Shown: in pieces, positions 10,961-62,715 of the stretch | Layout of the letters: the number at the start of each line of letters is the position of its first letter | Position numbering within the stretch: the stretch's first letter is position 1 | IMG/VR virus record: IMGVR_UViG_3300020442_003756 | Span: 1 to 64,000 of that record | Direction: 5' to 3' (one strand) | Source: a virus | DNA length: 64,000 nt | Notes under the pieces: generated by a model | Seen by the model: only the letters and a program-made list of their open reading frames with translations | The model's database searches: none | Told to the model about the DNA's origin: nothing | Program-made: the position numbers and the translations under genes

Positions 10961-13900
10961 TTATTTATTATCAATATATTCTTTTAATTCTTTGATTGCT
11001 TGAATTAATACTGCAATTAATCTATCATATTTAACAGCTTTGTATCCATTTACTCTTGTTTCAACAATTTCTGGGAATATTTCTTCAACTTCTTGGGCAA
11101 TAACTCCAATATCTGCTCCTTCATTTTCATGTATTCCTGGTTTTGCAATCCAATCAAAATGTATACCACTTAATGCCATTATTTTATCTAAAGCATTTTC
11201 AATAATTTTTCTATTATCTTTTAATCTAATATCTGATGAATAATAAGCTGTAATATCATTAGTAGCTCTTATTGTTCCACCTGTACCACTTGCAGAAACA
11301 CCAACACCTAAACTATTAATTTGTGTATCTGAACCAGTACTTACACCTGGTCCAGTTGGTCCTACGTTACCTTGAGCTCCAATTGATCCTTTATTACCTT
11401 GAGGACCTTGTGATCCTACTTCACCTTTTTGTCCTTTAGCACCAGTTGGTCCAACGTTACCCTGAGGTCCAACATTACCTTGAGCACCTATTGCACCTTT
11501 AGCACCTTGAGGTCCCACATTACCTTGAGCACCAATAGCACCTTTTGAACCTTGAGCACCAACATTACCTTGAGGTCCTACTGGTCCTATAGGTCCTATT
11601 GAACCGATTGCACCTTTTGCACCTGTAGGTCCTACATTACCTTGAGGTCCTACATTACCTTGAGCACCAATATTACCCTGAGGTCCTGTTGTACCAGTTA
11701 TACCTTGAAGACCAGTATCACCTTTACCACCTTTAGCACCTTGAGCACCAACGTTACCTTGAGGTCCTACGTTACCTTGAGCACCTGGTGCACCTTTTTG
11801 TCCTTTAGGTCCTGTTGGTCCAACGTTACCTTGAGGTCCTACGTTACCTTGAGCACCTATTGCACCTTTAGCACCTTGAGGTCCAGTAGTACCTTGTGTA
11901 CCAACATTACCTTGAGGTCCTGTTGCTCCAATTGCACCTTTTGGTCCGGTAGGTCCTACATTACCTTGAGGTCCTGTATCACCTTGTGCACCAATTGCCC
12001 CTTTTGCACCTTGAGGTCCTACGTTACCTTGAGAACCAATTGCACCTTTTGCACCTTGTGCACCTGTTGTACCAGTAATACCTTGAGCACCAACGTTACC
12101 TTGAGGTCCTGTTGCTCCAATTGCACCTTTTGAACCTTGAGCACCAACATTACCTTGAGGTCCTGTTGTACCAGTTATACCTTGAAGACCAGTATCACCT
12201 TTACCACCTTTTGCTCCTTGAGGTCCTACATTACCTTGAGCACCAATATTACCTTGAGGTCCCGTTGAACCAGTAGTACCTTGGATACCTTGAACACCCT
12301 GAGCTCCAATATTACCTTGAGGTCCTGTAGCTCCAATTGCACCTTTATCTCCTTGTGGTCCTACATTTCCTTGTGGACCAGTTGTACCAGTAATACCTTG
12401 TGCACCTGTTGCACCTTTATTACCTTGAGCTCCTACTTCTCCTTTTTGTCCTTTAGGTCCAGTTGGTCCTACAGGTCCTGTTGTACCTTGAATACCTTGA
12501 GCACCTGTTGCACCTTTATTACCTTGAGGCCCTGTTGTACCTTGTGTACCAGTAGTTCCTTGAGAACCAGTTGTTCCTTGAGCTCCTGTAGCACCTTTTT
12601 GTCCTTTTGAACCAGTAGTACCTTGAATACCCTGAGCACCAGTATCACCTTTATCACCAGTTGTAACAAAAGAACAAATTATATCTTCTGAATTACTAAA
12701 TGGTGAAGTAGCTGAACTTGCTTCATTTGTTATATTTAATGTCCACCAAGTTCCATTATCTGTTAGATCAGTAATTGCAAATGTTAAGAATTGTGTTGCA
12801 TCTGTTCTATTTGAAATTCTTATATGTCCCTTAACTGCTGAAGTAACACTATCAATTGTTGATAATGTAGAAGCAATACTTGTTCCATTATCATCAGTTT
12901 CATCAATGTATGAAAGTGTTGCAGAATTTTGAGTTGAATTATTTAATCTTATTTTTCCAGTTCCTGGGTCAGCAGATGATGTAGATGAATCAAATGTAAA
13001 ATCAAATGAATTACCACCAAAGTTACCATCTGTACCTTGTATACCTTGTGTACCTTGGGTACCTTGTATTCCTTGTGTTCCTTGAACTCCCTGAGCACCT
13101 GTAGCACCTTTTTGTCCTTTTGAACCTGTTGTACCCTGAATACCTTGTGTACCCTGAATACCTTGTGTTCCTTGAATTCCTTGAGCTCCAGTAGCACCTT
13201 TTTGTCCTTTTTGTCCTTTTGTACCTGTTATACCTTGAATACCTTGTGTACCTTGTGTTCCTTGGATACCTTGAGTACCTTGAGTACCAGTATCACCTGT
13301 AGTTCCTTGGGCTCCTGTAGCACCTTTTTGTCCTTTTGTACCTGTAATACCTTGAGCACCTGTAGTACCTTGAGCACCTGTTATACCCTGTATACCTTGT
13401 ATTCCTTGAGTACCTTGTGTTCCTTGAGAACCAGTATTACCTGTAGTACCTTGAATACCTTGAGCACCAACTTCTCCTTTTTGTCCTTTTGTACCTGTTA
13501 TACCCTGAGCTCCAGTTGCACCTTTTTGTCCTGTAGTACCTTGAGCTCCAGTTTCACCTTGTGTACCAGTTGTACCTTGGGCACCTGTTGCACCTTTTTG
13601 ACCTGTTGTACCTTGAGCTCCAGTAATACCTTGAATACCTTGAATTCCTTGGGTTCCTTGAGTACCTTGTGTACCAGTTGTTCCTTGAGAACCAGTTGTA
13701 CCAGTTGTTCCTTGAATACCTTGTGAACCAGTTATACCTTGAGCACCAGTGTTACCTGTAGTTCCTTGAGCACCTGTAACTCCTTTTTGTCCTTTTTGTC
13801 CTTTTGTACCTGTTATACCTTGAATTCCTTGAGTACCTTGAATACCTTGAGTTCCTTGTATACCCTGAGTACCTTGTATACCCTGAGTACCTTGTGTACC

Positions 13901-16900
13901 AGTAGTACCTTGAGCTCCTGTAATACCTTGAATACCCTGTATTCCTTGTATTCCTTGAGTACCTTGAGTTCCTTGTGTTCCCTGAGCTCCAATTTCTCCT
14001 TTTTGTCCTTTTTCTCCTGTCTCACCTTGAGCACCAGTTGCACCTTTTTGTCCTTTTGTACCTGTAATACCTTGTGTACCCTGTGTTCCTTGAGCACCTG
14101 TTATACCTTGAATACCTTGAATACCTTGAGCACCAGTAGTACCTTGAGTTCCAGTTGCTCCTTGTGCACCAGTATCACCTTTTTGTCCAGTTATACCTTG
14201 AGTACCTTGAGTACCAACTGCTCCTTTTTGTCCTTTTTGTCCAGTTTCACCTTGAGCTCCAGTTGTACCTTGTGAACCAGTTGTTCCTTGAGTACCCTGG
14301 ATTCCTTGTGCCCCAGTTATACCTTGTATTCCTTGAGTTCCCTGAATACCTTGTGCACCTACTTCACCTTCAGCACCTTGTACTCCTAAAGGTCCTGTTG
14401 TACCTTGAATACCTTGAGTACCAGTTTCACCTTGAGTTCCAACCGCACCTTGTGCACCTGTTAAACCTGCTGTACCTTGAATTCCTTGTACACCCTGTAT
14501 ACCCTGTATACCTTGAACACCTTGTGTTCCTTGAATACCTTGAGCCCCAGTTGTCCCTTGAGCACCAGTATCTCCTTTATCACCTGTACTTACAAATGAA
14601 CAAATAATATCTTCTGCATTACTAAAAGGAGATGTTGCAGAACCTGCTTCATTTGTTATGTTAAGAGTCCACCAACCAGTATTATCAGTTAAATCGGAAA
14701 TTGCAAATGTTAAGAATTGAGTTGCATCCGTTCTATTTGAGATTCTAATATGTCCTTTTACAGCTGATGTTACACTATCTATTGTTTGTAGTGTTGAAGC
14801 AATACTATTACCATCATCATCAGTTTGATCAATATAAGCAGCTGTAGCACTATTTTGTGTTGAATTATTTAATCTTATTTTTCCAGTACCAGGATCTGAA
14901 GCTCCTGTACCTGTATCAAAAGTATAATCAAATGAATTACCTCCAAAGTTACCATCAGTACCTTGAACACCTTGTGTTCCTTGAACACCTTGTGTTCCTT
15001 GTACTCCTTGTGTTCCCTGAATACCTTGAATTCCTTGAGTACCCTGTGTTCCTTGTATCCCTTGAATACCTTGAGCACCTAATTGTCCTAAAGTTCCTTG
15101 AATACCTTGTGTTCCTTGAACACCTTGTGCACCAGTTGTACCTTGTGTACCAGTTGTTCCTTGTGAACCAGTTGTTCCTTGTGTACCGGTTGTTCCTTGA
15201 GTACCTTGTGTACCAGTTATACCTTGTATACCTTGAATACCTTGAGTTCCTTGTGTTCCTGTAGCACCTTGAATTCCTTGAGTACCTTGTGTTCCAGTTT
15301 CTCCTTGAGTACCTGTTTCTCCTTGAGCACCAGTTACACCTACTTCTCCTTTTTGTCCTTTTGTACCTGTAATACCTTGAGTACCTTGTGTACCTTGAGT
15401 TCCAGTTATACCCTGTATGCCTTGTGTTCCTTGTGTTCCTTGTGTACCAGTTTCACCTTGAGTACCAGTTGAACCAGTAGTACCTTGAGTACCTTGAATA
15501 CCTTGTGTACCAGTAGTACCCTGAGTTCCTGTTATACCTTGTATACCTTGTGTACCCTGTGTTCCTTGTATTCCTTGAGTTCCCTGAGTTCCTTGTGCTC
15601 CTGTTATACCCTGTATTCCTTGAGTACCTTGTGTACCTTGAATACCTTGAATACCTTGTACTCCCTGAGTGCCTTGTGTTCCTTGAATTCCTTGTGTGCC
15701 TTGTGTTCCTTGTGCACCAGTTATACCTTGTATACCTTGAGTACCTTGTGTTCCAGTTTCTCCTTGTGCCCCAGTAATACCTTGAATACCCTGAATACCT
15801 TGAGTTCCTGTTTGACCTTGAGCACCTGTAGCACCTTTTTGTCCAGTTGTACCTTGAATACCTTGAGCACCGGTTGTACCTTGAGTTCCAGTTGCTCCTT
15901 GTGCACCTGTTATACCTTGTATACCTTGTGTTCCTTGTGTACCTTGAGTTCCTTGAGAACCAATAGTACCCTGAATTCCTTGAATACCTTGTGTACCTTG
16001 AATACCTTGTGTTCCTTGAGTACCTTGAGTACCTTGAGCACCATCTGATAAAGTTTCAATATCAAGTTGACCACCCATTCCTGAGTGATTCTGGCAATAA
16101 TAATATAATGTATTTGGCGCATCTTGTGGTACTTTAAATGTAGAAATTAAATCAGTACCAGCTGTTCCGCCATTTGTACTCCAACCATCTGTATATTGAG
16201 ATCCACCGTTATGAGTACCATCATTAGTTGTTGAAATAGCTATTGGGTGAGTACTGTTTGTTCCAGCTGATTGATCAAATGTATAAGTAAATCCTCTTAA
16301 TAATTCTAATGTTGGTTGTGATGATCCATCTATAATATAAACACCACCTCCTACTGTAACAATAAATGCATCAGTAATTGGTTCACTACCTGTTATACCT
16401 TGAACACCCTGTGTACCTTGAATTCCTTGTGTTCCTTGAGTACCTTGAGCTCCAGTTATACCTTGAATTCCTTGTGTACCTTGTGCACCTGTAATACCTT
16501 GGATACCTTGAGTTCCTTGAATTCCTTGTGTGCCCTGTGTTCCTTGTGCTCCTGTTATACCTTGTATACCTTGTATTCCTTGAGTACCTTGAGTACCAAT
16601 TTCTCCTTTTTGTCCTTTTGAACCTTGATCACCAGTATTACCTTGTGTACCTGTAGATCCTTGAGTACCAGTAGTACCTTGAGTACCAGTTGTTCCTTGA
16701 ATACCTTGAGTTCCTTGAATACCCTGAACACCTTGTGTTCCTTGAGTACCTTGAGCTCCAGTTATACCTTGAATTCCTTGTGTACCTTGAGGACCTGTAG
16801 TTCCTTGATTACCTGTTGTACCTTGTATTCCTGTAGCACCTTGAGTACCTGTTATACCTTGTATACCTTGAATACCTTGTGCACCTGTTGTACCTTGTGT

Positions 16901-19075
16901 ACCTTGAGCACCAGTATCTCCTTTGTCTCCAACTGCAACAAAAGAACAAATTATATCTTCAGCATTTGAAAATGGTGAAGCAGCTGAACTTGCTTCATTA
17001 GAAATATCTAAAGTCCACCAAGAACCATTATCTGTTAAATCTGTTATAGCAAATGTTAAGAATTGGGTGGCATCAGTTCTATTAGAAATTCTAATATGTC
17101 CTTTAATTGCGGAAGTTACTGAATCTAAAGTTTGTAAAGTTGATTCAATACTTGCTCCACCTCCATCATTTTGAGAAATATAAGCAGCTGTAGAGCTATT
17201 TTGTGTTGAATTATTTAATCTTATATCACCTGAACCTGGGTCTGCTGCACTTGTAGAAGAATCAAATGAATAATCAAAAGAGTTACCTCCAAAATTACCA
17301 TCTGTACCTTGAATACCTTGAGTACCTTGTGTACCAGTTTCTCCTTGTGCCCCAGTAATACCTTGTATTCCTTGAGTACCTTGTGTTCCTGTTGTTCCTT
17401 GAATACCCTGAGCTCCAGTTGTTCCTTGTGTTCCAGTTGTTCCTTGTGCACCAGTAATACCTTGAATACCTTGAGTTCCTTGAGTTCCTGTTTCACCTTG
17501 AGTTCCATCTGTACCTTGTGTACCAGTATTACCTTGTGTACCAGTAGCACCTTGCGTTCCAGTTGTTCCCTGAGAACCAGTAATACCTTGAGCTCCAGTT
17601 GCTCCTTGAGTTCCTAACTCACCTTTTTGTCCTTTTACACCATCAGTAGAAGAACCAGAAATACCTTGAATACCTTGTATTCCTTGTGTACCTGTTGTAC
17701 CCTGAATACCTTGAGTACCTGTTGTACCTTGTGTTCCAGCTCCTGTTATACCTTGAATACCTTGAGTACCCTGAGTTCCAGTTTCTCCTTGAGCACCTTT
17801 TGATCCAGTAATACCTTGAATACCTTGAATACCTTGTGTTCCTTGAATACCTTGAATACCTTGGTTACCTGTTTCACCCTGTGCACCAGTTGTACCTTGA
17901 ATACCTTGAGTTCCCTGAATACCTTGAGTTCCTTGAATACCTTGTGTACCTTGAGTTCCTTGAGCACCTGTAATACCCTGAATACCTTGAATACCTTGAA
18001 TACCTTGTGTACCAGTTGTACCTTGTGTTCCTGTTTCACCTTGTGTACCAGTTGTACCTTGTGTTCCTGTTTCACCTTGTACCCCAGTATCTCCTTTTTG
18101 ACCAGTTGCTCCTTGTGAACCTGTTATACCCTGAGTACCTTGAGCTCCTGTTATACCTTGTATACCTTGTATACCTTGAATTCCTTGTGTGCCCTGTGTA
18201 CCTTGTGTTCCTTGTGCTCCAGTTATACCTTGTATACCCTGAGTTCCGGTTTCACCTTGAGCACCTACTTCTCCTTTTTGACCTTTTGTACCAGTAATAC
18301 CTTGAGTACCTTGTACACCTTGAGTACCCTGAGTACCAGTAACACCTTGAATACCTTGTATACCTTGGGTACCTTGAGTACCTTGTGTTCCTTGTGTACC
18401 AGTAGCTCCCTGTGTACCAGTTGCACCTTGTGTTCCAGTTATACCTTGAATACCTTGTATACCTTGTATACCTTGAGCACCTTGATCACCTTCAGCTCCT
18501 TTTTGTCCTTTTGTACCTGTTATACCTTGAGCACCTTGAGTTCCAGTTTCTCCTTGAGCACCCTTTTCTCCTTTTTGACCTTTTTCACCTGTTTCACCTT
18601 GTATACCCTGTATACCTTGGGTACCTTGAGTACCTTGTGTTCCTTGTGTACCAGTCTCACCTTGTGTACCTGTTGTTCCTTGGGTACCTTGAGTTCCAGT
18701 TGCACCTTGTGCACCAGTAATACCTTGAATTCCCTGAATACCTTGTGTGCCTTGAGTACCTTGAGTACCTTGAGCACCTGTAATACCTTGACTACCAATT
18801 GGACCAGTTTCACCTTGAGTACCTGTTGTACCAGTTGCTCCTTGAGCACCTTTTGCACCTTTTTGACCAGTAGTACCTTGGGCACCTGTTGTACCTTGAG
18901 AACCTACACCTGAGGCAAATGATAAGTTACCGGATCCATCTGTTTTTATTACTTGGTCTGCTGAACCATCTGAGGTTGGATAGATAAGTCCACTAGCGGT
19001 AAGTGCTGTGGATACATTTAATTTGTTTAATTCTGCGTTAGAACCACTAACGACAACTTTTTTCCAATTGGGCAT
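10961..19075 (-). CDS. Giant collagen-like tail fibre with S74 chaperone (2704 aa)
   Basis: After a short head (about 1-55) most of the protein is Gly-X-Y triplets with Gln, Thr, Ile, Ala in X/Y (GTQG, GIQG, GITG, GAQG). Breaks: three near-identical globular modules at about 590-718, 1372-1498 and 2013-2140 (start D-G-N-F-G-G, end S-F-V-x-x-G-D-K-G-D-T-G), and a cupredoxin-like insert at about 895-1012 with C-Q-N-H-S-G-M. Triplets from about 2150 to 2590 switch to Pro in X and Lys in Y ([12 protein letters not shown]). The end is an intramolecular chaperone (peptidase S74): S-D-I-R-L-K gives the Ser/Lys pair (Lys at +5), followed by [14 protein letters not shown]. After trimerisation this domain should cut itself off. 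Role: long trimeric fibre. Lys occurs in X-Lys-Gly, the sequence modified by collagen lysyl hydroxylases. Confidence 0.85.
12660..13030 (-). repeat. NFGG globular module, copy 3 of the giant fibre
   Basis: About 125 codons starting [10 protein letters not shown] and ending G-D-K-G-D-T-G; contains [24 protein letters not shown] and P-F-S-N-x-E-D-I-I-C-S-F. Two sister copies lie in the same gene and one in the second fibre. Boundaries are approximate. Confidence 0.75.
14583..14956 (-). repeat. NFGG globular module, copy 2 of the giant fibre
   Basis: Same block as copies 1 and 3, with [11 protein letters not shown] in the variable part. Flanked on both sides by collagen triplets. Boundaries are approximate. 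Confidence 0.75.
16040..16395 (-). other. Cupredoxin-like domain inside the giant fibre
   Basis: About 118 codons between two collagen runs. Strand pattern and the motif T-F-K-V-P[19 protein letters not shown] follow the copper-binding end of blue-copper proteins; an upstream T-H-P-I could give the first His ligand. All four type 1 copper ligand residues (His, Cys, His, Met) are therefore present, with the C-x2-H-x2-M spacing seen in pseudoazurin-type sites. Confidence 0.6.
16925..17302 (-). repeat. NFGG globular module, copy 1 of the giant fibre
   Basis: First of the three modules, with [18 protein letters not shown] in the variable start and [10 protein letters not shown] in the middle. 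Boundaries are approximate. Confidence 0.75.
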
Positions 19076-19145
19076 ATATCTAAATTAATTATGGTTGGTA
19101 ACTCAAAATGAGCCCACTTCCGTTAGGCCTATAATTTATTTTGTT

Positions 19146-19154
19146 ATAAATATA
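19146..19154 (-). promoter_or_regulatory. Class B promoter of the giant fibre (TATATTTAT)
   Basis: TATATTTAT on the minus strand, 70 bases before the ATG, the longest leader found after a class B box. The leader contains TAGGCCTA and a GC-richer stretch, but no clear hairpin with a T-tract. Confidence 0.5.
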
Positions 19155-19171
19155 TAAGATGGAATTAAATA

Positions 19172-22100
19172 TTACTTTTTATCCCTAAGATTGTTGATTT
19201 GTTTTTGTTGTTCTTTAATCGCTTCAATTAATAAAGGAACTATTTTGTCATAGTTAACAGCTTTATATCCATTTTCTCTAGTTTGAACAACTTCTGGTAA
19301 TACTTCTTCAATTTCTTGTGCTATAACACCAATATCAGATCCTTTATTTCCATGAATATATTTAATACCTTCTTCATCTAATTTTTTCCAATCAAAGTTA
19401 ACACCACTTATTTGAAGAACTTTTTCAATTGGATTATCAATTGGTAAAATATTTTCTTTTAATCTTTTATCTGAAGTAGAGTAAGCAACAATATCATTAG
19501 TAGCTTCAATTTTACCTATTGTTGTAGTAGCAGTAATATTTCCAACAGTAAGACCATTACTTACAGTTAAAGAACCACTTACTTCTAAAGCTTGAGAAGG
19601 AGAACTATCATGAATACCAATATAACCAGAACTTCCATCTACAAAGAATGCGTGTGTTGGTGTTGTACCAGTATCTGATTCAACCCTAAAATCAACATTT
19701 ACACTATTATCATTAATAATAACTTCTCCTAATCCTGGTGTTGAACCTGGATTAAGAGCAGAAAATAATCTTCTTGTTCCTACTACTACATCAAATCTAT
19801 CAACAGTACCAACTCTTGAAGCACTAATATTAGTATCACTATCAGGTCCAAATACTATACTTGTTTCATTTGCTGATAATTTTAATTGATCACTATCCTC
19901 ATGCCATTTAATATCGGAAGAACCAGTTATACCACCATTACCACCTAATATTGCAAAAGCTCTATTAGCATCATTAGTAATATCAGCAGCAGCTCCTTTT
20001 TGTCCTTTAGTACCAGTAATACCTTGAGCACCATTTGAACCATTAGATCCATTTTTAACATATTGAACAAGTACATCTTCACTATTAGAAAAAGTACCAT
20101 TTTGTTCTACGTCTGCAGAACTAACATCTAGTAAAGCTCTTGTACCATTAACTGTATTAATAGTATAAGAAGCAACAGTAATTATATCACCAGCTGTTGT
20201 TCCATAAATTATAAATTGAGAATTTTTAGAAAATAAATTATTATGAGTAGCACCATCTGCATCTTCTAAAGCAATTGAAATTTGTGTTGAACTACCTATA
20301 GTTGAATTATTAAATCTAATTTGTCCAGCTGCACCCGCCATATCAGTACTAGTACTATAAGTATAATTTAATCCTGCTGTAGCACCTTTTTGACCAGTTA
20401 TACCTTGAGCTCCAGTAATTCCTTGTGCACCCGTTATACCTTGAGTACCTGTTATACCTTGAGCACCCGTAATACCTTGTACACCTTGTATACCTGTTAT
20501 ACCTTGTGCACCCGTTATACCTTGAGCTCCAGTAATACCTTGAGTACCTGTTATACCTTGAGCACCCGTAATACCTTGTGCACCTGTTATACCTTGTGCA
20601 CCTGTTATACCTTGAGCTCCAGTAATACCTTGGGCTCCAGTAATACCCTGTGCACCTGTTATACCTTGAGCTCCAGTAATTCCTTGTGCACCCGTTATAC
20701 CTTGTGCACCTGTTATACCTTGTGTACCTTGAGAACCTGTAATACCTTGTACACCTTGTATACCTGTTATACCTTGTGCACCCGTTATACCTTGAGCTCC
20801 TGTTTCTCCTGTTATACCTTGAATACCTTGAATACCTTGAGTACCTGTTATACCTTGAATACCTTGTGTACCCTGTGTTCCTTGAGTACCCGTTATACCT
20901 TGGATACCTTGTACGCCTTGAGCTCCAGTAATACCTTGAGCACCTTGAGCACCAGTATCACCTTTATCACCTGTAGTAACAAATGAACATATAATATCTT
21001 CTGAATTACTAAATGGTGAATCTGATGAATAAGCTTCTTGTGAAATATCTATTGTCCACCAACCCGTATTATCAGTTAAATCACTAATAGCAAATAAAAT
21101 AAATTGAGAAGCATCAGTAATATTAGATAACCTAACATGTCCTTTAACGGCTGAACCAACTGAATCTATTGATTGCATGAATGATGAAATATCATTTCCA
21201 TTATCATCAGTATCATCAATATACATTGCGGTAGCACCTTTTTGTCCAGCTGCTGCACCTGAAAGTGAATTTAATCTAACTTTTCCAGTACCTGGATCTG
21301 CTGGTGAAGCCGAAGAACCATCAAAAGTATAATCAAATGTAGCACCCCCAAAATTACCATCAGTACCTTGAGCACCTGTTGTACCTTGGGTACCTGTGGT
21401 ACCTTGAGGACCAACAGTACCAACTCCTGTTGTACCTTGAATACCTTGAGAACCTAAAATACCTTGAATACCTTGAATACCTTGGGCACCAGTTGTTCCT
21501 TGTGTTCCTTCACCTATTTCACCTTTTTGTCCTTTTTCTCCAGTTGCGCCTTGAGCACCGGTAGCACCTTTTTGTCCTTTGGTTCCAGTAATACCTTGAG
21601 TACCTTGGGCACCAACTTCACCTTTTTGTCCTTTTTCTCCTTTTTCTCCTGTTTCACCTTGAGCACCAGTAATACCTTGAATACCTTGAACACCTTGTGC
21701 ACCAACTTCTCCTTTAGCACCTTTTGAACCTTTTTGACCAGTTATACCTTGAATACCTTGAGCACCAGTTGCACCTTTTTCACCTGTTATACCTTGTATC
21801 CCTTGAGCACCTGTTGCACCTTGTGCACCAGTTTCACCTTTTTGTCCTTTTTGTCCTTTTTGACCTGTTATACCTTGAATACCTTGAATTCCTTGTACAC
21901 CTTGTGCACCTGTAGTTCCTTGAATACCCTGAATACCTTGAGTACCTTGTGCTCCAATTTCTCCTTTTTGTCCTTTTTCTCCTGTTTCACCTTGTGTACC
22001 AGTAGCACCTTGTGTACCTGTTTCACCTTGAGCACCCTTTTGTCCTGTAATACCCTGAATACCTTGAGTTCCAGTTGCTCCTTGAGTACCTGTTGCTCCT

Positions 22101-22969
22101 TGAGATCCTGTTATACCTTGAATGCCCTGAGCACCTGTAGTACCTTGAGCACCTTTTGCACCTTCTATTCCTTGTGCACCTGTTATACCTGTAATACCTT
22201 GTGGACCTGTAGCTCCTGTTATACCTTGAACACCTTGAGCTCCTTGTGTACCCGTTGCTCCTTTAGCCCCACTTGAACCAGTAGTACCTTGAATACCCTG
22301 AGGACCTACATTACCTAAATTACCTTGAGGTCCTGTAGCACCTTGTGCACCTGTATTACCAGTTGTTCCTTGTATACCTTGAGCACCTGTAGTACCTTGG
22401 GTACCAGTTTCACCCTGAGTACCAGTAGCACCTTGAGTACCAGTTGTACCTTGTGTACCAAAAGTACCTTGAATACCTTGAGCACCAGTTGTTCCTTGAA
22501 TTCCTTGTTGTCCTGTAGCTCCTTGAGTACCTGTTGTACCCTGTGTACCTGTAGGACCAGTTGTACCACTAATACCTTGAGTACCTGTTGCACCTTGAGC
22601 ACCTGTACTACCTTGAATACCTTGAGCTCCAGTTATACCTTGTGTTCCTTGAATACCTTGAGCACCAGTAGCTCCTTGAGCACCAATAGAAGAATCATAA
22701 TATAAAACACCAGAACCTGTATCAGCTACTAAAACTTGTAATGCATTTGAAGCGGAAGGATTTGATTGAACATTTTCAATTTTAAATTTATCTGCAGAAG
22801 TAGCTAAGTGAAAAGTAGATGAACCAGAAACTGCTAAAGAACCTGAAATGCCAATTTCATATCCAACTGTAGAACTAGGGTTAAATGCATCAAATGATTG
22901 GGATACCTGTAACGCTTCAATAGTTTGTCCCGTTTCTACACCAGTTTTTATTATCTTTTTAAGAGCCAT
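19172..22969 (-). CDS. Collagen-like tail fibre with S74 chaperone (1265 aa)
   Basis: The head (1-50, M-A-L-K-x-x-x-K-T-G-x-x-T-G-Q-T-I-E-A-L-Q) is shared with the 653-residue fibre and probably docks on the same structure. Then Gly-X-Y triplets (about 100-540), one NFGG module (about 540-665), a pure run of G-I-T-G-A-Q units (about 700-860), a beta-rich block, and a C-terminal S74 chaperone with S-D-K-R-L-K (Ser/Lys pair) and I-G-V-I-A-Q-E-I-E-E-V-L-P-E. K-G pairs are common ([10 protein letters not shown]), with Lys in the Y position. Expected to form a trimer and lose the chaperone. It has its own class B promoter 26 bases upstream. Distinct N-terminus from the 2704-residue fibre suggests two different attachment sites. 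Confidence 0.85.
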   Translation of the reverse strand: MALKKIIKTGVETGQTIEALQVSQSFDAFNPSSTVGYEIGISGSLAVSGSSTFHLATSADKFKIENVQSNPSASNALQVLVADTGSGVLYYDSSIGAQGATGAQGIQGTQGITGAQGIQGSTGAQGATGTQGISGTTGPTGTQGTTGTQGATGQQGIQGTTGAQGIQGTFGTQGTTGTQGATGTQGETGTQGTTGAQGIQGTTGNTGAQGATGPQGNLGNVGPQGIQGTTGSSGAKGATGTQGAQGVQGITGATGPQGITGITGAQGIEGAKGAQGTTGAQGIQGITGSQGATGTQGATGTQGIQGITGQKGAQGETGTQGATGTQGETGEKGQKGEIGAQGTQGIQGIQGTTGAQGVQGIQGIQGITGQKGQKGQKGETGAQGATGAQGIQGITGEKGATGAQGIQGITGQKGSKGAKGEVGAQGVQGIQGITGAQGETGEKGEKGQKGEVGAQGTQGITGTKGQKGATGAQGATGEKGQKGEIGEGTQGTTGAQGIQGIQGILGSQGIQGTTGVGTVGPQGTTGTQGTTGAQGTDGNFGGATFDYTFDGSSASPADPGTGKVRLNSLSGAAAGQKGATAMYIDDTDDNGNDISSFMQSIDSVGSAVKGHVRLSNITDASQFILFAISDLTDNTGWWTIDISQEAYSSDSPFSNSEDIICSFVTTGDKGDTGAQGAQGITGAQGVQGIQGITGTQGTQGTQGIQGITGTQGIQGIQGITGETGAQGITGAQGITGIQGVQGITGSQGTQGITGAQGITGAQGITGAQGITGAQGITGAQGITGAQGITGAQGITGAQGITGAQGITGTQGITGAQGITGAQGITGIQGVQGITGAQGITGTQGITGAQGITGAQGITGQKGATAGLNYTYSTSTDMAGAAGQIRFNNSTIGSSTQISIALEDADGATHNNLFSKNSQFIIYGTTAGDIITVASYTINTVNGTRALLDVSSADVEQNGTFSNSEDVLVQYVKNGSNGSNGAQGITGTKGQKGAAADITNDANRAFAILGGNGGITGSSDIKWHEDSDQLKLSANETSIVFGPDSDTNISASRVGTVDRFDVVVGTRRLFSALNPGSTPGLGEVIINDNSVNVDFRVESDTGTTPTHAFFVDGSSGYIGIHDSSPSQALEVSGSLTVSNGLTVGNITATTTIGKIEATNDIVAYSTSDKRLKENILPIDNPIEKVLQISGVNFDWKKLDEEGIKYIHGNKGSDIGVIAQEIEEVLPEVVQTRENGYKAVNYDKIVPLLIEAIKEQQKQINNLRDKK
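20386..20810 (-). repeat. Tandem 18-bp array encoding G-I-T-G-A-Q
   Basis: About two dozen 18-bp units coding mostly for G-I-T-G-A-Q, with a few G-I-T-G-T-Q or G-I-Q-G-V-Q units. Synonymous sites vary between units (GTTATACC, GTAATACC, GTAATTCC on the plus strand), so it is not a very recent expansion. Length change by slippage or recombination would keep the frame. Confidence 0.8.
20975..21362 (-). repeat. NFGG globular module in the second fibre
   Basis: Diverged copy of the module found three times in the giant fibre: D-G-N-F-G-G-A-T-F-D start, G-H-V-R-L-S-N-I-T-D-A-S-Q-F middle, [12 protein letters not shown] end. Boundaries are approximate. Confidence 0.7.
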
Positions 22970-57501: not shown

Positions 57502-58632
57502 CTACAGCGTATTCATTAAGTGTAACCATTCCTCTACTCGTTTTTCCCACGACTGTTCTATAACCCATTTCTTATTATCCACCGTTTGCTTATACCACTT
57601 ATAATGAAACTCCTTATCATCATGACACGAACCATTATCCCTGAATATAACATCCATCATCAATTGCCTCACATCCGAATCTATCCTCCCACTATCAATT
57701 ATATTTCCTCTGCCTATCAACAATGAATCTAAATTACCCGTATTTGTAGAACATATTTTAACTCCACCCATCATCATTTCCAAGGCAGTTATACAATACG
57801 TTTCTGGGTACTTACTAGGATATAACCAATATTCTGCTTTACTAATTTCCCTATACAAGTCATCTGGCGCTAAGGCTCCCTTCCAAGTCACACCATCTTG
57901 CTCATCTGGAACATGACCCCACCTCTCACTATAAGGCGGACAACAAACAACCAAAGTAGCATCTGGTAATCCCTGTTTTATTTGAGGCCACATAGCAAGT
58001 AAATTATCTAACCCTCTATCTGTTGCACTACTATAAATAAACCTATTATTGACCTTATCTTCCTCAATGTATTCCCAATCTCTAGGATCAATAGCATTAT
58101 TCACTACTTGTATATACGTATGATCATTTTGGGGTATGTAGCCAAGAGCTTTGTTCACTTCTTTTTTAATTAAAGGTACTTGCCATTCACTCACACATAT
58201 CATTTTAGTTAATCTCTCATCATGTAATGTTGCTTTTACTTCATCATTACTTAATTTCCCACCTTTATAATACTCATGCCAATATTCATTATGAACCCAA
58301 AATAATGATTTTTTAAAATTTATATTACAATCATCTAAGACTTTCATATAATTAATATAGTTGATAGCTATTACCCAATCAAAATCTACAAACGCAATTG
58401 CATTAACTCCTCTATTATTGCCTTGATTTATTATCACATCATGATGAATGTAAGTTACTTTATTTACATAACAACCTTCAACATCACCTACTACATAAAC
58501 GCTATGTCCTTTCTTAGCTAATTCCTCACTTAGTTTAATAACACAATATTCACTTCCACCTATACCTTGATCAACCCAAGTTTGACTATTCCATTTCGGA
58601 TTAGCATAGCCGACATAAAACATTATTTTCAT
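57502..58632 (-). CDS. GT4-type glycosyltransferase
   Basis: 376 residues. N-terminal G-I-G-G-S-E-Y-C-V-I-K-L-S-E-E-L-A-K-K-G-H-S-V-Y-V-V-G-D is the start of the GT-B, family 4 fold; the middle has V-V-N-N-A-I-D-P-R-D-W, a donor-binding loop (N-G-V/I-D), and P-S-K-Y-P-E-T-Y-C-I-T-A-L-E-M-M-M-G-G, the E-x7-E motif with the catalytic-loop Glu residues. Transfers a sugar from a nucleotide donor. Last gene of the modification operon; overlaps the oxygenase by one base. Confidence 0.8.
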   Translation of the reverse strand: MKIMFYVGYANPKWNSQTWVDQGIGGSEYCVIKLSEELAKKGHSVYVVGDVEGCYVNKVTYIHHDVIINQGNNRGVNAIAFVDFDWVIAINYINYMKVLDDCNINFKKSLFWVHNEYWHEYYKGGKLSNDEVKATLHDERLTKMICVSEWQVPLIKKEVNKALGYIPQNDHTYIQVVNNAIDPRDWEYIEEDKVNNRFIYSSATDRGLDNLLAMWPQIKQGLPDATLVVCCPPYSERWGHVPDEQDGVTWKGALAPDDLYREISKAEYWLYPSKYPETYCITALEMMMGGVKICSTNTGNLDSLLIGRGNIIDSGRIDSDVRQLMMDVIFRDNGSCHDDKEFHYKWYKQTVDNKKWVIEQSWEKRVEEWLHLMNTL

Positions 58633-59204
58633 TACTCTATTGTTATTGTTCCTTCTTTAACTGCTACTAATTCACTTTGCCAAATGTTAATTGCAATAGC
58701 ATATCTAACACCTCTGGTCACTTGTGTTACTCTATGTAAGTGATTACCTGCATTAAATATTACTAATCTATTAAATTTAGCTTCAATTCTTTCTGGTGTA
58801 TTTTCTCTACCTCTGGAGTGTATTTCTAAATAACCACCATCTATATCCATTGGTTTAGGATAAAATACTGTTCCAACTAATGGTGTTAATATTTCACCTC
58901 CATTATTACCACCTGTTCTAGCCCAATGTTCTTCATCCTTATCAAAATGTTGCATTAAATCACTTTGTGGATGTCCATCACCATAAACACCTGTCCAATA
59001 TTCAAAACCAATTAGGTTATTAAGTACCAACTGGGAATTATATCTCCAAATGTATTCAATTAATCGTTTTTTAATTGTATTTGCTTCACTATTCCACCAA
59101 CCATTCCACCACATGAAATTTCCATTTGGTCCAAAGAATGATTCATCGTTATCAATTGCTTCTAATAACGGTTTATCTTTTATAAAATCGTCTATTACTA
59201 TCAT
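58632..59204 (-). CDS. 2OG-Fe(II) oxygenase
   Basis: 190 residues. M-Q-H-F-D-K-D-E gives H-x-D, N-H-L-H-R-V-T-Q-V the distal His, and R-Y-A-I-A-I-N-I-W the Arg of the 2-oxoglutarate pocket, with G-G-Y-L-E-I-H between, as in prolyl/other amino-acid hydroxylases. Trp-rich N-terminal part (M-W-W-N-G-W-W-N). Adjacent to the lysyl-hydroxylase-like fusion gene (one-base gap). Substrate unknown. Confidence 0.7.
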   Translation of the reverse strand: MIVIDDFIKDKPLLEAIDNDESFFGPNGNFMWWNGWWNSEANTIKKRLIEYIWRYNSQLVLNNLIGFEYWTGVYGDGHPQSDLMQHFDKDEEHWARTGGNNGGEILTPLVGTVFYPKPMDIDGGYLEIHSRGRENTPERIEAKFNRLVIFNAGNHLHRVTQVTRGVRYAIAINIWQSELVAVKEGTITIE

Positions 59205-59205
59205 A

Positions 59206-60636
59206 TTATTTATGGTCTAAATTTTTAATAAAACTTACTACTACGTATCTTGTTCCTTCAGTTACAGGTCTAGCTCCATGTTTATGAGTTATATTACCTG
59301 GATGAAGTGTACACATTCCAATTTCACTTGGATTAGCTAAATATTTGTATTTAGGGAACCAAGTACCCCCACCTTTAAATTCACCTGGATTTAAATTAAC
59401 TAATGTTGTTATATTACTATAATCATGATGAATATCTAAATGTGGTTGTTCATCTGCTTTATATCTAATAACAAATGATTCATCTCTTAAATGTTTCCAA
59501 CTAGAACCTTCTAATTCGAATCTATCTATAGCTAATGGTTTAATATAATGATTAATTACTTTATTATAAATTTCCTTCATACCTAATGTTTCCATTAGAT
59601 TATCTGTTGTAGGATAAAATTCATGTCTATCAGTAGTCCACTTATGTGCTTCAGCTAAGTTAATTAGTTCCTTACAAAAACGTTTTGTAAATAAAGGAAA
59701 TAAATAAACATGAGTAGCTGGTTCATCAATAATTAAATCATATTTTCTGTCAATTAATTGTTTATTAATGTATTTATAGCTCCATTCTTCCCAATTACTA
59801 GCATCTAATATTTCAAATTTAGTTCTTGGTGATTCAAAATTTTCATCAATTGTTACTGTATTGCCTATATTAATTGAAGGTTTTTCTGCTTCAGCTTTAA
59901 CTTGTTTTACATATTCAGGTGTAAATTCAGTTAATGAATCTTTATCATAATGAGATGATTGATTAATATAATCAACATTAAAAGCATAGGCCCTAAAATC
60001 TGAATTACCTAATACTTCATTACAATCTTGTCTAGGATGTTTACAATGAATAGCAGACATAAATTCATCATATGGTATTAAATTATCTAAGTAACCTGAA
60101 TCTAATATTTCTTTCATACCCTTTCTAGATATCATATAAGCATGAGTATTAAAAGTATAATCACATCTAACTAATGCCTCATTTACTCGTTCTTCCTTAT
60201 CTTTTTCTAAAGCACTTCTACCTAAGTAACAAATACTCCAATCATCATTTAAATGATTAAGTTCAAATTCAGGAAATTTATCAAATTCCTTGTTTAAATA
60301 AAAATCTTCTTCTAATATTAGAACATTATGATGACCAGCATTATAAGCACCTTCAATTACTTGATAATGAGATAAAGCACAGCCTATTTCACCTGGAGTT
60401 AAGTCTCTACTCCACCAATCATTTTGAGGTTCTTTAGGGTTACTAGGTAATTTCCACCAATCAGCTTGTTTAAACCCATAAGGTGAATCAATATTACCCT
60501 TAACTAAATCCCAACCATTAATAGCAGGAAATTCATACCATGGAACTGGGTCTTTGAAATTTAGTTGTTCAAGATTATCATATATTCTAGCCGAGTCTGT
60601 AGCTAAGTTAATAACGTAAGTAAAATCTATTTTCAT
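59206..60636 (-). CDS. GT25 glycosyltransferase fused to a procollagen lysyl hydroxylase-like dioxygenase
   Basis: 476 residues. N-terminal domain (about 1-235): F-T-Y-V-I-N-L-A-T-D-S-A-R-I, L-T-P-G-E-I-G-C-A-L-S-H-Y-Q and V-L-I-L-E-E-D-F, the GT25 fold. C-terminal domain (about 310-476): H403-H-D405 as iron ligands, G-G-G at 422-424, H-P-G-N-I-T-H-K-H453, and Arg463 in G-T-R-Y-V-V-V-S-F-I. The ten-residue distance from the distal His to the Arg, G-G-G and H-P-G are the hallmarks of animal PLOD enzymes. Known members hydroxylate Lys in X-Lys-Gly and add sugar to hydroxylysine; a giant-virus enzyme (mimivirus L230) combines both. The phage has collagen-like fibres with X-Lys-Gly. It is translated from an overlapping operon (four-base overlap upstream). 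Confidence 0.8.
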   Translation of the reverse strand: MKIDFTYVINLATDSARIYDNLEQLNFKDPVPWYEFPAINGWDLVKGNIDSPYGFKQADWWKLPSNPKEPQNDWWSRDLTPGEIGCALSHYQVIEGAYNAGHHNVLILEEDFYLNKEFDKFPEFELNHLNDDWSICYLGRSALEKDKEERVNEALVRCDYTFNTHAYMISRKGMKEILDSGYLDNLIPYDEFMSAIHCKHPRQDCNEVLGNSDFRAYAFNVDYINQSSHYDKDSLTEFTPEYVKQVKAEAEKPSINIGNTVTIDENFESPRTKFEILDASNWEEWSYKYINKQLIDRKYDLIIDEPATHVYLFPLFTKRFCKELINLAEAHKWTTDRHEFYPTTDNLMETLGMKEIYNKVINHYIKPLAIDRFELEGSSWKHLRDESFVIRYKADEQPHLDIHHDYSNITTLVNLNPGEFKGGGTWFPKYKYLANPSEIGMCTLHPGNITHKHGARPVTEGTRYVVVSFIKNLDHK

Positions 60637-60800
60637 AACGTTTCTGTTTTAATTATTTTCCAGTTAAAAGGTTGTCTATTTCTTTGGTATTGATCCATAG
60701 ACCATTCAATTCTATCTGTTTCTAATTCTATATTATATGGTTTAGTAGAACAATACTTAGTTTCAGTTATGTATTGTATTTCTATAGTATATTTTTTCAT
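60633..60800 (-). CDS. Small protein (55 aa) between zinc-ribbon protein and lysyl hydroxylase-like gene
   Basis: A frame with ATG at 60800 and TGA at 60633-60635, starting inside the stop of the upstream gene (ATGA) and ending inside the start of the next (ATGA). Two such couplings make it very probably real. Sequence M-K-K-Y-T-I-E-I-Q-Y-I-T-E-T-K-Y... W-S-M-D-Q-Y-Q-R-N-R-Q; soluble, charged. No family recognised. Confidence 0.65.
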   Translation of the reverse strand: MKKYTIEIQYITETKYCSTKPYNIELETDRIEWSMDQYQRNRQPFNWKIIKTETL

Positions 60801-61141
60801 TGTAACGAATTAATAAAGTGTAACGTCCAAGCAATTAAACCGTTTAATTGCAGCGCAACTAGATTCCATTGTCTTCTTACAGCTACCTGAAATATAACAC
60901 AAATAAATCCAGTCATAAATAATAAAGGTTCTAAAGTCCATTGTCCAGCTATTAAAAAACCAGTACCCATATAACCAATTCGAGATGACATTCTCTCAAT
61001 TGGTGTAAGTTTTCTTTGTCTTACCATCATTCTTAATACTTCTCTCCACCACCTATACTCACATCTACGGCAAGTTTTCTTATCAGATGTTTTATACATC
61101 CAATCAGGTTGTTTTTGATTACATTGATTACATTTCCTCAT
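60797..61141 (-). CDS. Zinc-ribbon membrane protein (114 aa)
   Basis: C-N-Q-C near residue 4-7 and C-R-R-C near 24-27 form a zinc ribbon; then two hydrophobic segments (G-T-G-F-L-I-A-G-Q-W-T-L-E-P-L-L-F-M-T-G-F-I-C-V-I-F, about 58-83, and a second near 92-110). A membrane-bound zinc protein in a glycan operon might anchor enzymes or sense redox; no function can be assigned. Four-base overlap with neighbours on both sides. Confidence 0.6.
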   Translation of the reverse strand: MRKCNQCNQKQPDWMYKTSDKKTCRRCEYRWWREVLRMMVRQRKLTPIERMSSRIGYMGTGFLIAGQWTLEPLLFMTGFICVIFQVAVRRQWNLVALQLNGLIAWTLHFINSLQ

Positions 61142-61497
61142 TCTAACTCATCTATAATTACATCAATATCACCTGGATCATCTATTATATTTTGATAATA
61201 TTTAGTCCACAACTTATGATCTGTAACTAAACATTGTTTACATATTGTTTTTCTAGTCACTGTACTTAATAATTCATCATAAGCTAATAATTCCATTTCA
61301 AAAGCAGGAGGTAAATTTAATTTACCCCAATCTGAATTTTCACCCCAAATTAATTTTCTATTTATTTTTTGAGCTGCAGAAACCATATTAATTTTTTCTT
61401 CCATCCATTCCATTAATGGAGTAGCTGCAGCATATACAGCGGGTAAATTGGTTGGTTTACTACACCAAGCACATGTTTTACTTTTGCCACTCATCAA
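61138..61497 (-). CDS. Zinc-ribbon protein (119 aa)
   Basis: C-A-W-C at 9-12 and C-K-Q-C near 90-93 (T-I-C-K-Q-C-L-V) suggest a zinc site built from distant halves, with helical sequence between. Acidic C-terminus (D-D-P-G-D-I-D-V-I-I-D-E-L-E). No family recognised. It overlaps the upstream oxygenase by 20 bases. Confidence 0.55.
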   Translation of the reverse strand: MMSGKSKTCAWCSKPTNLPAVYAAATPLMEWMEEKINMVSAAQKINRKLIWGENSDWGKLNLPPAFEMELLAYDELLSTVTRKTICKQCLVTDHKLWTKYYQNIIDDPGDIDVIIDELE

Positions 61498-62077
61498 CTA
61501 TATCTTTAGGAACAAAATAACCAAAACTAAGTAATACCCTAGGTTTATCTAAGGCTACTTGGGTAGTATAATGCTCATCAATACCAGCAATACACCTCCA
61601 TATTTCATTTTCTTCTACTTTATATTCTATTTCTTTTATTACTGGATTACCTCCAACTAATGGTTTAGAAATTAATGTATTAAATCTAACATGAACAACA
61701 TCACCTAAATAATCATGAGGTAAATCTTCATTTAATGATTCATCAGGACCTTCAACATTAAAATTAGCATCATTATGTTTATGCACCTGATGTCCTTGAG
61801 TTGAATAACAAATTATAAACCCATAATTAGGTTCAATTTGTAAATCCCAAGGTAATCTATAAAATTCTAATATCTCAGTAGCTATTTTATCTAATTCAGC
61901 ATAAGGAAATTTTGCTTCAGCTAATTCTTCATCTATGATGTGTAAATAATCTCTGGCTCTTACATTACCCCCATGTTCTGGTTCATCAGTAATATATTTA
62001 ATCCTATTTTCTTCAACCAAAATCCAGTCTAAAATAGGTTGTGTTAATTTTTTAGGTAAAATATAATTGCTTTTCAT
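61478..62077 (-). CDS. 2OG-Fe(II) oxygenase-like protein
   Basis: 199 residues. H-K-H-N-D-A-N supplies a H-x-D (H-N-D) at about 109-111, E-H-Y-T-T-Q-V-A-L a distal His (about 170), and R-V-L-L-S-F-G-Y the Arg of the pocket. The overall pattern is that of short dioxygenases found in marine phages. No closer relative can be named. Coupled with its neighbours (1- and 20-base overlaps). Confidence 0.55.
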   Translation of the reverse strand: MKSNYILPKKLTQPILDWILVEENRIKYITDEPEHGGNVRARDYLHIIDEELAEAKFPYAELDKIATEILEFYRLPWDLQIEPNYGFIICYSTQGHQVHKHNDANFNVEGPDESLNEDLPHDYLGDVVHVRFNTLISKPLVGGNPVIKEIEYKVEENEIWRCIAGIDEHYTTQVALDKPRVLLSFGYFVPKDIVDEWQK

Positions 62078-62715
62078 TATTGTACTTGTCTTTCACCATC
62101 TCTACCTACAAAATACCAATAATTATTTGTAAATTGATGGTCATTTCTTAATATATTATCTAATTCAGGTCTAACTACAACATTGCCACTTATAGATATA
62201 CGATTTTCGTTTGAAGAATTTCTAGTAACAAAATGTAAAATGTCTCTAGAAAAAATATAGATTTTACCTGGTGTTGAATTTATTTCCCACATTATTCTTT
62301 TTGTTTCAACTTGACAGTGGAATATTAAATTACCAGCACCCTTAGGCATATGTGGATAATATACCCAAGATAAACCTAAAACCCCTTTCTCATAATGATT
62401 ATGAATCATTGTTTGTTCACCTGGTGGTGTAAAATGACCCCAAATTTCATTTATTGCTGTTGCTTGATCCATATTAAAAATACCATCAAAAATGTTACTT
62501 ACTTTTCCACTTATAGCATCAAAAGTATCATCTTTTAGAGGTACATCTTCATAAAATGTATGTTGCATGTCAACTTCCTTATGAGATGGTCTAGAATCAT
62601 TTAAATTATCACCTGGATTCTCTCTAGTAGTTGTTATTTCTTCAATAAGCGATTCGTTATTTAATTCGAGATCATGCTCGTAATAAAATAAACCGTTAAT
62701 TAATTTTAAACTCAT
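62077..62715 (-). CDS. Putative 2OG-Fe(II) oxygenase (TIGR02466-like)
   Basis: 212 residues. M-I-H-N-H-Y-E-K-G (about 101-109) and I-L-H-F-V-T-R-N-S-S-N-E-N-R-I-S-I-S-G-N (about 166-185), where the last motif is typical of the TIGR02466 dioxygenases, often seen in T4-like marine phages. The HxD is replaced by H-N-H, so metal ligands may differ. Four-base overlap with the 73-aa gene. Substrate unknown. Confidence 0.6.
   Translation of the reverse strand: MSLKLINGLFYYEHDLELNNESLIEEITTTRENPGDNLNDSRPSHKEVDMQHTFYEDVPLKDDTFDAISGKVSNIFDGIFNMDQATAINEIWGHFTPPGEQTMIHNHYEKGVLGLSWVYYPHMPKGAGNLIFHCQVETKRIMWEINSTPGKIYIFSRDILHFVTRNSSNENRISISGNVVVRPELDNILRNDHQFTNNYWYFVGRDGERQVQ

Follow-up and report, generated by a model that had tools for sequence, protein, structure and literature searches.

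Animals glycosylate the hydroxylysines of their collagen, and giant viruses are the viruses in which the same is known. Does a bacterial virus carry out this chemistry on fibres of its own? The question is raised by a gene at positions 59206-60636 of a 64,000-nucleotide stretch of viral DNA (positions 1 to 64,000 of IMG/VR record IMGVR_UViG_3300020442_003756; hereafter the window). The viral record as a whole has 66,399 bases. Baseplate-wedge matches suggest a tailed phage of the contractile type; the sole clue to its host is that two homologous contigs are binned with Flavobacteriaceae metagenome-assembled genomes. An original prediction, made from the letters alone, held that the gene joins a glycosyltransferase family 25 (GT25) domain to a procollagen lysyl hydroxylase (LH) domain, and that the phage uses the product to hydroxylate and glycosylate its own collagen-like fibres. 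Sequence comparison and structural modelling confirm the predicted fusion, and the evidence below supports the interpretation as a fibre-modifying enzyme.

A GT25 domain fused to a lysyl hydroxylase domain

We compared the C-terminal part of the protein (residues ~280-470) with all PDB sequences using phmmer. It matched human LH3 (E 7.2e-27 to 3.6e-26) and mimivirus L230 (E 1.3e-23 to 1.5e-23), and no other oxygenase appeared at E 1 or better. Pfam also gave an OGFOD2-like match and, below its threshold, one to 2OG-FeII_Oxy_3, and the best PHROG match was PHROG 61 (5.9e-25). A profile of 21 phage LH domains scored L230 at 139.9 bits and LH3 at 138 bits, versus 32 bits for the next protein, a bacterial prolyl 4-hydroxylase, and 26 bits for PiuC. 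In the LH tree, whose root serves for drawing only, the window LH fell on the same side as LH3 and L230, away from the cyanophage type, with support of 100/99. By both profile and tree, then, the domain does not group with small-molecule oxygenases. Cyanophage LH domains form a deep branch separate from the LH3/L230/window type; where the others have Arg, the presumed ligand of 2-oxoglutarate, these (L003:4693-6537 and others) have Lys (GVKY for GTRY).

The PLOD-type motifs described in the original prediction were found where it had placed them, behind the GT25 domain: H403-H404-D405, G422-G424, H445-P-G-N-I-T-H-K-H453 and G461-T-R-Y-V-V-V-S-F469, with R463 ten residues after H453. In LH3, His667, Asp669 and His719 hold Fe, and Arg729 and Tyr656 hold 2-oxoglutarate (PMC6082870). 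These residues align to H403, D405, H453, R463 and Y392, respectively, and H403, D405 and H453 were invariant across 21 divergent phage LH domains. An AlphaFold model of the window protein (14 sequences; mean predicted local distance difference test score 78.6) was in agreement: residues 273-471 superposed on L230 with Z 23.6 and a root mean square deviation (rmsd) of 2.3 over 190 residues, versus Z of at most 14.3 for 2-oxoglutarate oxygenases other than LH.

The N-terminal part matched the Pfam family PF01755 (glycosyltransferase family 25) over residues 6-193, with 57.1 bits against a cut-off of 24. Its match among PDB sequences was COLGALT1 (E 2.9e-16 to 7e-16), on which residues 1-230 of the model superposed with Z 24.9 and rmsd 2.4 over 213 residues. 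E109-E110-D111 occupies the place of the COLGALT1 EDD motif.

Lysine-bearing collagen-like fibres

Two collagen-like fibres of 2704 and 1265 residues are encoded in the same window, and their repeats bear out the prediction that Lys stands in Y of Gly-X-Y: the longer fibre has 66 Lys in Y and the shorter 23, with 0 in X in either. These lysines are clustered. KGQK occurs 20 and 7 times, respectively, versus 2.6 and 1.1 expected from a triplet shuffle, which is an enrichment of 6-8 times. Each of the two carries a Peptidase_S74 chaperone domain at its C-terminus, as is common among phage tail fibres. Thr is the second commonest Y residue of the fibres. A third, shorter fibre is free of Lys in its repeats; its homologue in the relative G200 has 11 Lys in Y. 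The enzyme had also been described as lying next to the fibres; this did not hold, as 36 kb separate it from the two long fibres (10961-22969) in the window. In cyanophages and the roseophage CRP-6, the enzyme follows the fibre within a few genes.

Association of lysyl hydroxylase genes with KGQKG fibres

Two alignment scans of IMG/VR yielded 196 and 291 confirmed relatives, and the best 80 of each were kept; the two sets overlap. A viral scan with the single window protein gave no match, and when a structural stretch was compared with phage records by megablast, no close relative came up. From LH-positive loci we obtained 72 distinct fibre sets. All 1741 Lys in their 9883 triplets stood in Y, with none in X, and at least two KGQKG were present in 63 of the 72.

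We also assembled an unbiased sample of phage collagens: 120 contigs were picked solely for a GGN period-9 pattern, and each entire record was scanned with the LH profile. A strong LH match was found in 4 of the 120, and 3 of these 4 carried 12-78 KGQKG. The co-occurrence test suggested with the original prediction was positive: at least two KGQKG were present in 3/4 LH-positive versus 1/114 LH-negative contigs with fibres (Fisher p 6e-5, a rough value because contigs are not independent samples). The lone LH-negative exception is L274, whose contig ends within the fibre, on the side normally occupied by LH. Lys in X was seen in 21 of 33 LH-negative contigs with at least five Lys versus 0 of 68 LH-positive locus sets.

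In a reverse sample of 74 records picked by KGQKG, LH was detected in 23, and in 17 of the 27 whose neighbourhood was more complete, versus 4/120 in the unbiased sample. KGQKG fibres with no detected LH (L299, L340, L347 and L367 among them) lie mostly in fragments. The L299 record encodes a 225-residue oxygenase with a weak LH-profile match, which may be another hydroxylase. The link between LH and KGQKG is therefore strong and not absolute: some KGQKG fibres have no visible LH, and a few LH-positive phages have Lys in X or little Lys. We rejected the simpler argument that Lys confined to Y proves LH, since Lys in Y also occurs without LH and is known in prophage collagens (PMC3368898).

Three phage architectures and a probable GT4 partner

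The fusion is present in cultured phages, namely Synechococcus phages S-8S55, S-8S56, S-8S53, S-PRM1 and S-CAM9 and Roseobacter phage CRP-6, and phage enzymes occur in three architectures. GT25-LH proteins of 447-498 residues are the window type. GT4-GT25-LH proteins have about 746-818 residues, and GT25-GT_PLOD-LH proteins, which include those of S-PRM1, S-CAM9, S-8S55 and CRP-6, about 580-640. The middle domain of the last is Pfam PF25342 (E 1e-28 to 5e-48) and matches the glycosyltransferase (GT) domain of LH3 and mimivirus R699 (E 2.8e-31 for R699). The window's GT4-family gene and the fused GT4 domain are homologues (E 1e-33 to 1e-45); in the window-type relatives L088-L095 and L279-L280, GT4 is likewise a separate neighbour gene. 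The many phages in which GT4 and GT25-LH form one chain link GT4 to the same pathway. The pairing of such an enzyme with lysine-bearing collagen-like fibres recurs in numerous marine phages, cultured ones included.

Variants of these arrangements were also observed. One 953-residue chain (L137:110-2971) has two GT25 stretches, GT_PLOD and LH, and elsewhere a 393-residue gene directly after the LH gene (L006:3763-4944) appears to combine GT25 with a degenerate GT_PLOD-like region. Bacterial GT4-LH fusions without GT25 (L288:8903-10582, L289:8885-10582 and L287:3-2639) come from a Chromatiales symbiont of Bugula, a Granulosicoccaceae bacterium and a Rhodobacteraceae metagenome-assembled genome. 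Stand-alone LH proteins of 234-237 residues, 41-47% identical to the window LH, occur in Thiotrichaceae and on one Aquificaceae-binned contig (L282:2855-3568, L283:278-982, L284:3306-4010 and L285:5679-6383).

Proposed function and alternatives

We consider it likely that the window protein is a bifunctional collagen-lysine modifying enzyme, and that the phage encodes a pathway that hydroxylates and glycosylates lysines of its fibres, like that of mimivirus L230. The Fe(II)/2-oxoglutarate-dependent LH domain would hydroxylate the Y-position Lys of X-Lys-Gly in unfolded nascent fibre chains, with the clustered KGQKG sites as its main targets. The GT25 domain would then transfer a hexose from a uridine diphosphate (UDP)-sugar onto hydroxylysine. 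The GT4 enzyme is probably a partner and, most simply, would add a second sugar, a place that GT_PLOD may take in cyanophages. What we observe are the identities of the domains, their fold and conserved ligands, the substrate-type sequence of the fibres, the recurring association among phages and the linkage through GT4 fusions; from these we infer which reactions occur, which sugars are used, in what order the steps follow and how the virion would benefit, be it in rigidity, stability or receptor variation.

Several points weigh against this proposal, beginning with the fact that hydroxylation and glycosylation of the fibre lysines are deduced from identities, associations and fusions. Mutagenesis of COLGALT1 found its first DXD, RMQV and D461/D463 to be essential (PMC3244457), and the features by which COLGALT/GLT25D enzymes are recognized (an N-terminal GT domain with DXD, RMQV and D461-x-D463) are not found in the window protein. 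Its GT25 domain comes without the N-terminal GT domain of COLGALT1, and hence without the first DXD (166-168); LGRSALE stands in the RMQV region; and D461-x-D463 corresponds to D132-W-S134, in which the second Asp is missing. In the LH domain, the LH3 pocket residue Cys691 is replaced by Thr425. On the side of the fibres, of the 27 KGQKG records whose surroundings are better covered, 10 are without detected LH (including L299 in 72 kb and L340 in 35 kb), the LH-positive phages G201 and L349 have Lys in X (4/23 and 2/23), and LH-positive L248 has very little Lys. Because Lys and Arg are already known to favour Y in other prophage collagens (PMC3368898), the Y preference alone is not diagnostic. 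Finally, collagen is absent from the fetched stretches around the bacterial chromosomal LH and GT4-LH genes, so that related enzymes may have other substrates.

We weighed three alternatives. In one, LH is active while GT25 and GT4 modify surface glycans, DNA or other parts of the virion, leaving the fibres with hydroxylysine only; the departures of GT25 from COLGALT1 speak for it. The additional stand-alone GT25 gene of the phage (52885-53733) fits this explanation, as does the finding in mimivirus particles of hydroxylysine and not of its glucosylation (PMC9614988). We nevertheless think it unlikely, since all three phage architectures join GT25 to LH, the GT25 fold is closest to that of COLGALT1, and L230 works with a single GT25-like domain. 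Less likely again is that KGQKG and Lys in Y reflect common descent of the fibres or triple-helix stability, with no role for LH. This would account for the Y preference in prophage collagens and for the KGQKG fibres with no detected LH; against it stand the contrast in X-position Lys between LH-negative and LH-positive loci, the near absence of KGQKG from LH-negative collagens of the unbiased sample, and fibre backbones that differ strongly (TQ/IQ-rich, PT-rich and AT-rich) yet have KGQKG in common.

To an equally small degree we credit the possibility that the lysines hydroxylated and glycosylated by the enzyme belong to a different protein, of the phage or of its host, and that its association with collagen is incidental. 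The collagen-free bacterial stretches favour this, and the five closest viral relatives besides L093 (G195-G199) appeared to do so too, as no collagen is present in their records of 22-62 kb. We rejected the conclusion that close relatives lack collagen: G195-G199 align to the window at about 52-64 kb only (one also at 0-1.6 kb), and synteny puts the fibre region outside their records. The one close relative that spans both ends, G200/L093, is collinear with the window; its enzyme is 50% identical and its homologous fibre carries 7 KGQKG and 106 Lys in Y, with none in X. Moreover, the association of LH with collagen holds across unrelated fibres and enzyme architectures.

Genomic neighbourhood

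The GT25-LH gene is held in a close-packed run of minus-strand genes (62077-62715, 61478-62077, 61138-61497, 60797-61141, the GT25-LH gene, 58632-59204 and 57502-58632). The 190-residue oxygenase that follows it lies between the LH and GT4 genes in several relatives as well, and is 56-67% identical to homologues in L088, L089, L092, L093 and L279. Its nearest solved relatives are of the PKHD/PiuC type, with weak scores. Prolyl hydroxylation of the fibres by this oxygenase is unlikely because Pro is almost never in Y (just 1/675 and 0/213 triplets). In cyanophages too, two small 2OG-Fe(II) oxygenase genes stand just before the LH gene. Elsewhere in the window, the stand-alone second GT25 gene encodes 282 residues (57 bits), and a Zeta-toxin/AAA-type kinase domain protein is found at 813-1607 (60 bits).

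Table 1. Features of the GT25-LH locus and of the fibres in the window (2OG, 2-oxoglutarate; aa, amino acids)
Feature	Position	Strand	Remarks
Collagen-like fibre, 2704 aa	10961..19075	minus	675 Gly-X-Y triplets, 20 KGQKG; presumed substrate
Collagen-like fibre, 1265 aa	19172..22969	minus	213 Gly-X-Y triplets, 7 KGQKG; presumed substrate
Third Gly-X-Y fibre, 653 aa	25045..27006	minus	54 triplets, no Lys in repeats; presumably not a substrate
GT4-family glycosyltransferase, 376 aa	57502..58632	minus	Second gene downstream of GT25-LH
Small 2OG-Fe(II) oxygenase, 190 aa	58632..59204	minus	PF13640, 36.8 bits
GT25-LH fusion enzyme	59206..60636	minus	476 aa, ATG start
C-terminal LH domain, residues 281-476	59206..59796	minus	Like LH3/L230 in sequence and predicted fold
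N-terminal GT25 domain, residues 1-237	59926..60636	minus	Closest to the C-terminal GT domain of COLGALT1
Further small 2OG-Fe(II) oxygenase	62077-62715	minus	Same gene run

Novelty and implications

In the literature searched, which did not extend to most subscription papers and preprints, we came across no description of a phage lysyl hydroxylase or GT25-LH enzyme. The relevant passages of a 2022 review of prokaryotic collagens make no mention of such an enzyme (PMC8968730), and prolyl 4-hydroxylase genes were all that a Baltic Sea study noted (PMC9301287). This suggests that, within that literature, the occurrence in phages is new for a kind of enzyme already known from mimivirus and animals.

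If the proposed function is correct, it would give a concrete role to abundant phage 2OG-Fe(II) oxygenases now labelled auxiliary metabolic genes, add a post-translational layer to host-recognition fibres, and offer compact enzymes for producing modified collagen in bacteria. More tentatively, and with somewhat more doubt than confidence, we speculate that phages possess the whole pathway of collagen hydroxylysine glycosylation (LH, a first transferase, and GT_PLOD or GT4 as the second), packed into a single protein or a few, that it serves tail fibres specifically and is common among marine and freshwater phages, and that the chemistry applied by animals to basement-membrane collagen may have an ancient reservoir in phages and bacteria.

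Comparison with known systems

The existing database label is of little guidance here: PHROG 61 is a '2OG-Fe(II) oxygenase' with an auxiliary metabolic gene label, which names no substrate and implies host metabolism, not fibre maturation. The closest system is mimivirus L230, in which GT precedes LH and which hydroxylates and glucosylates viral collagen (PMC9614988); with two activities in the same domain order, it is a direct precedent for the phage enzyme. Both have a GT25-like domain first and LH last in one chain, the same Fe and 2-oxoglutarate ligands, and a viral collagen in the same genome. In contrast to the phage protein with its 476 residues, L230 has 895 residues and a long middle region and belongs to an amoeba virus; the phage protein has Thr for the pocket Cys and a GT4 partner gene, which is fused in relatives.

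Mimivirus R699, a galactosylhydroxylysyl glucosyltransferase, needs DxxD and Trp (PMC9546862), and the cyanophage GT_PLOD domain keeps both. The window protein has no such domain, and GT4 may fill that place. Human LH3 (PLOD3) resembles it in the LH domain, by sequence and by predicted fold. The GT-accessory-LH order of animal LH1-3 is not seen in the window protein, in which Pfam gave no GT_PLOD match and GT25 stands at the N-terminus. Unlike the LH3/COLGALT1 complex, it is without the PLOD GT domain, the accessory domain and the N-terminal GT domain of COLGALT1; like that complex, it brings together the two kinds of domain that the human proteins assemble, and the phage joins them in a single chain.
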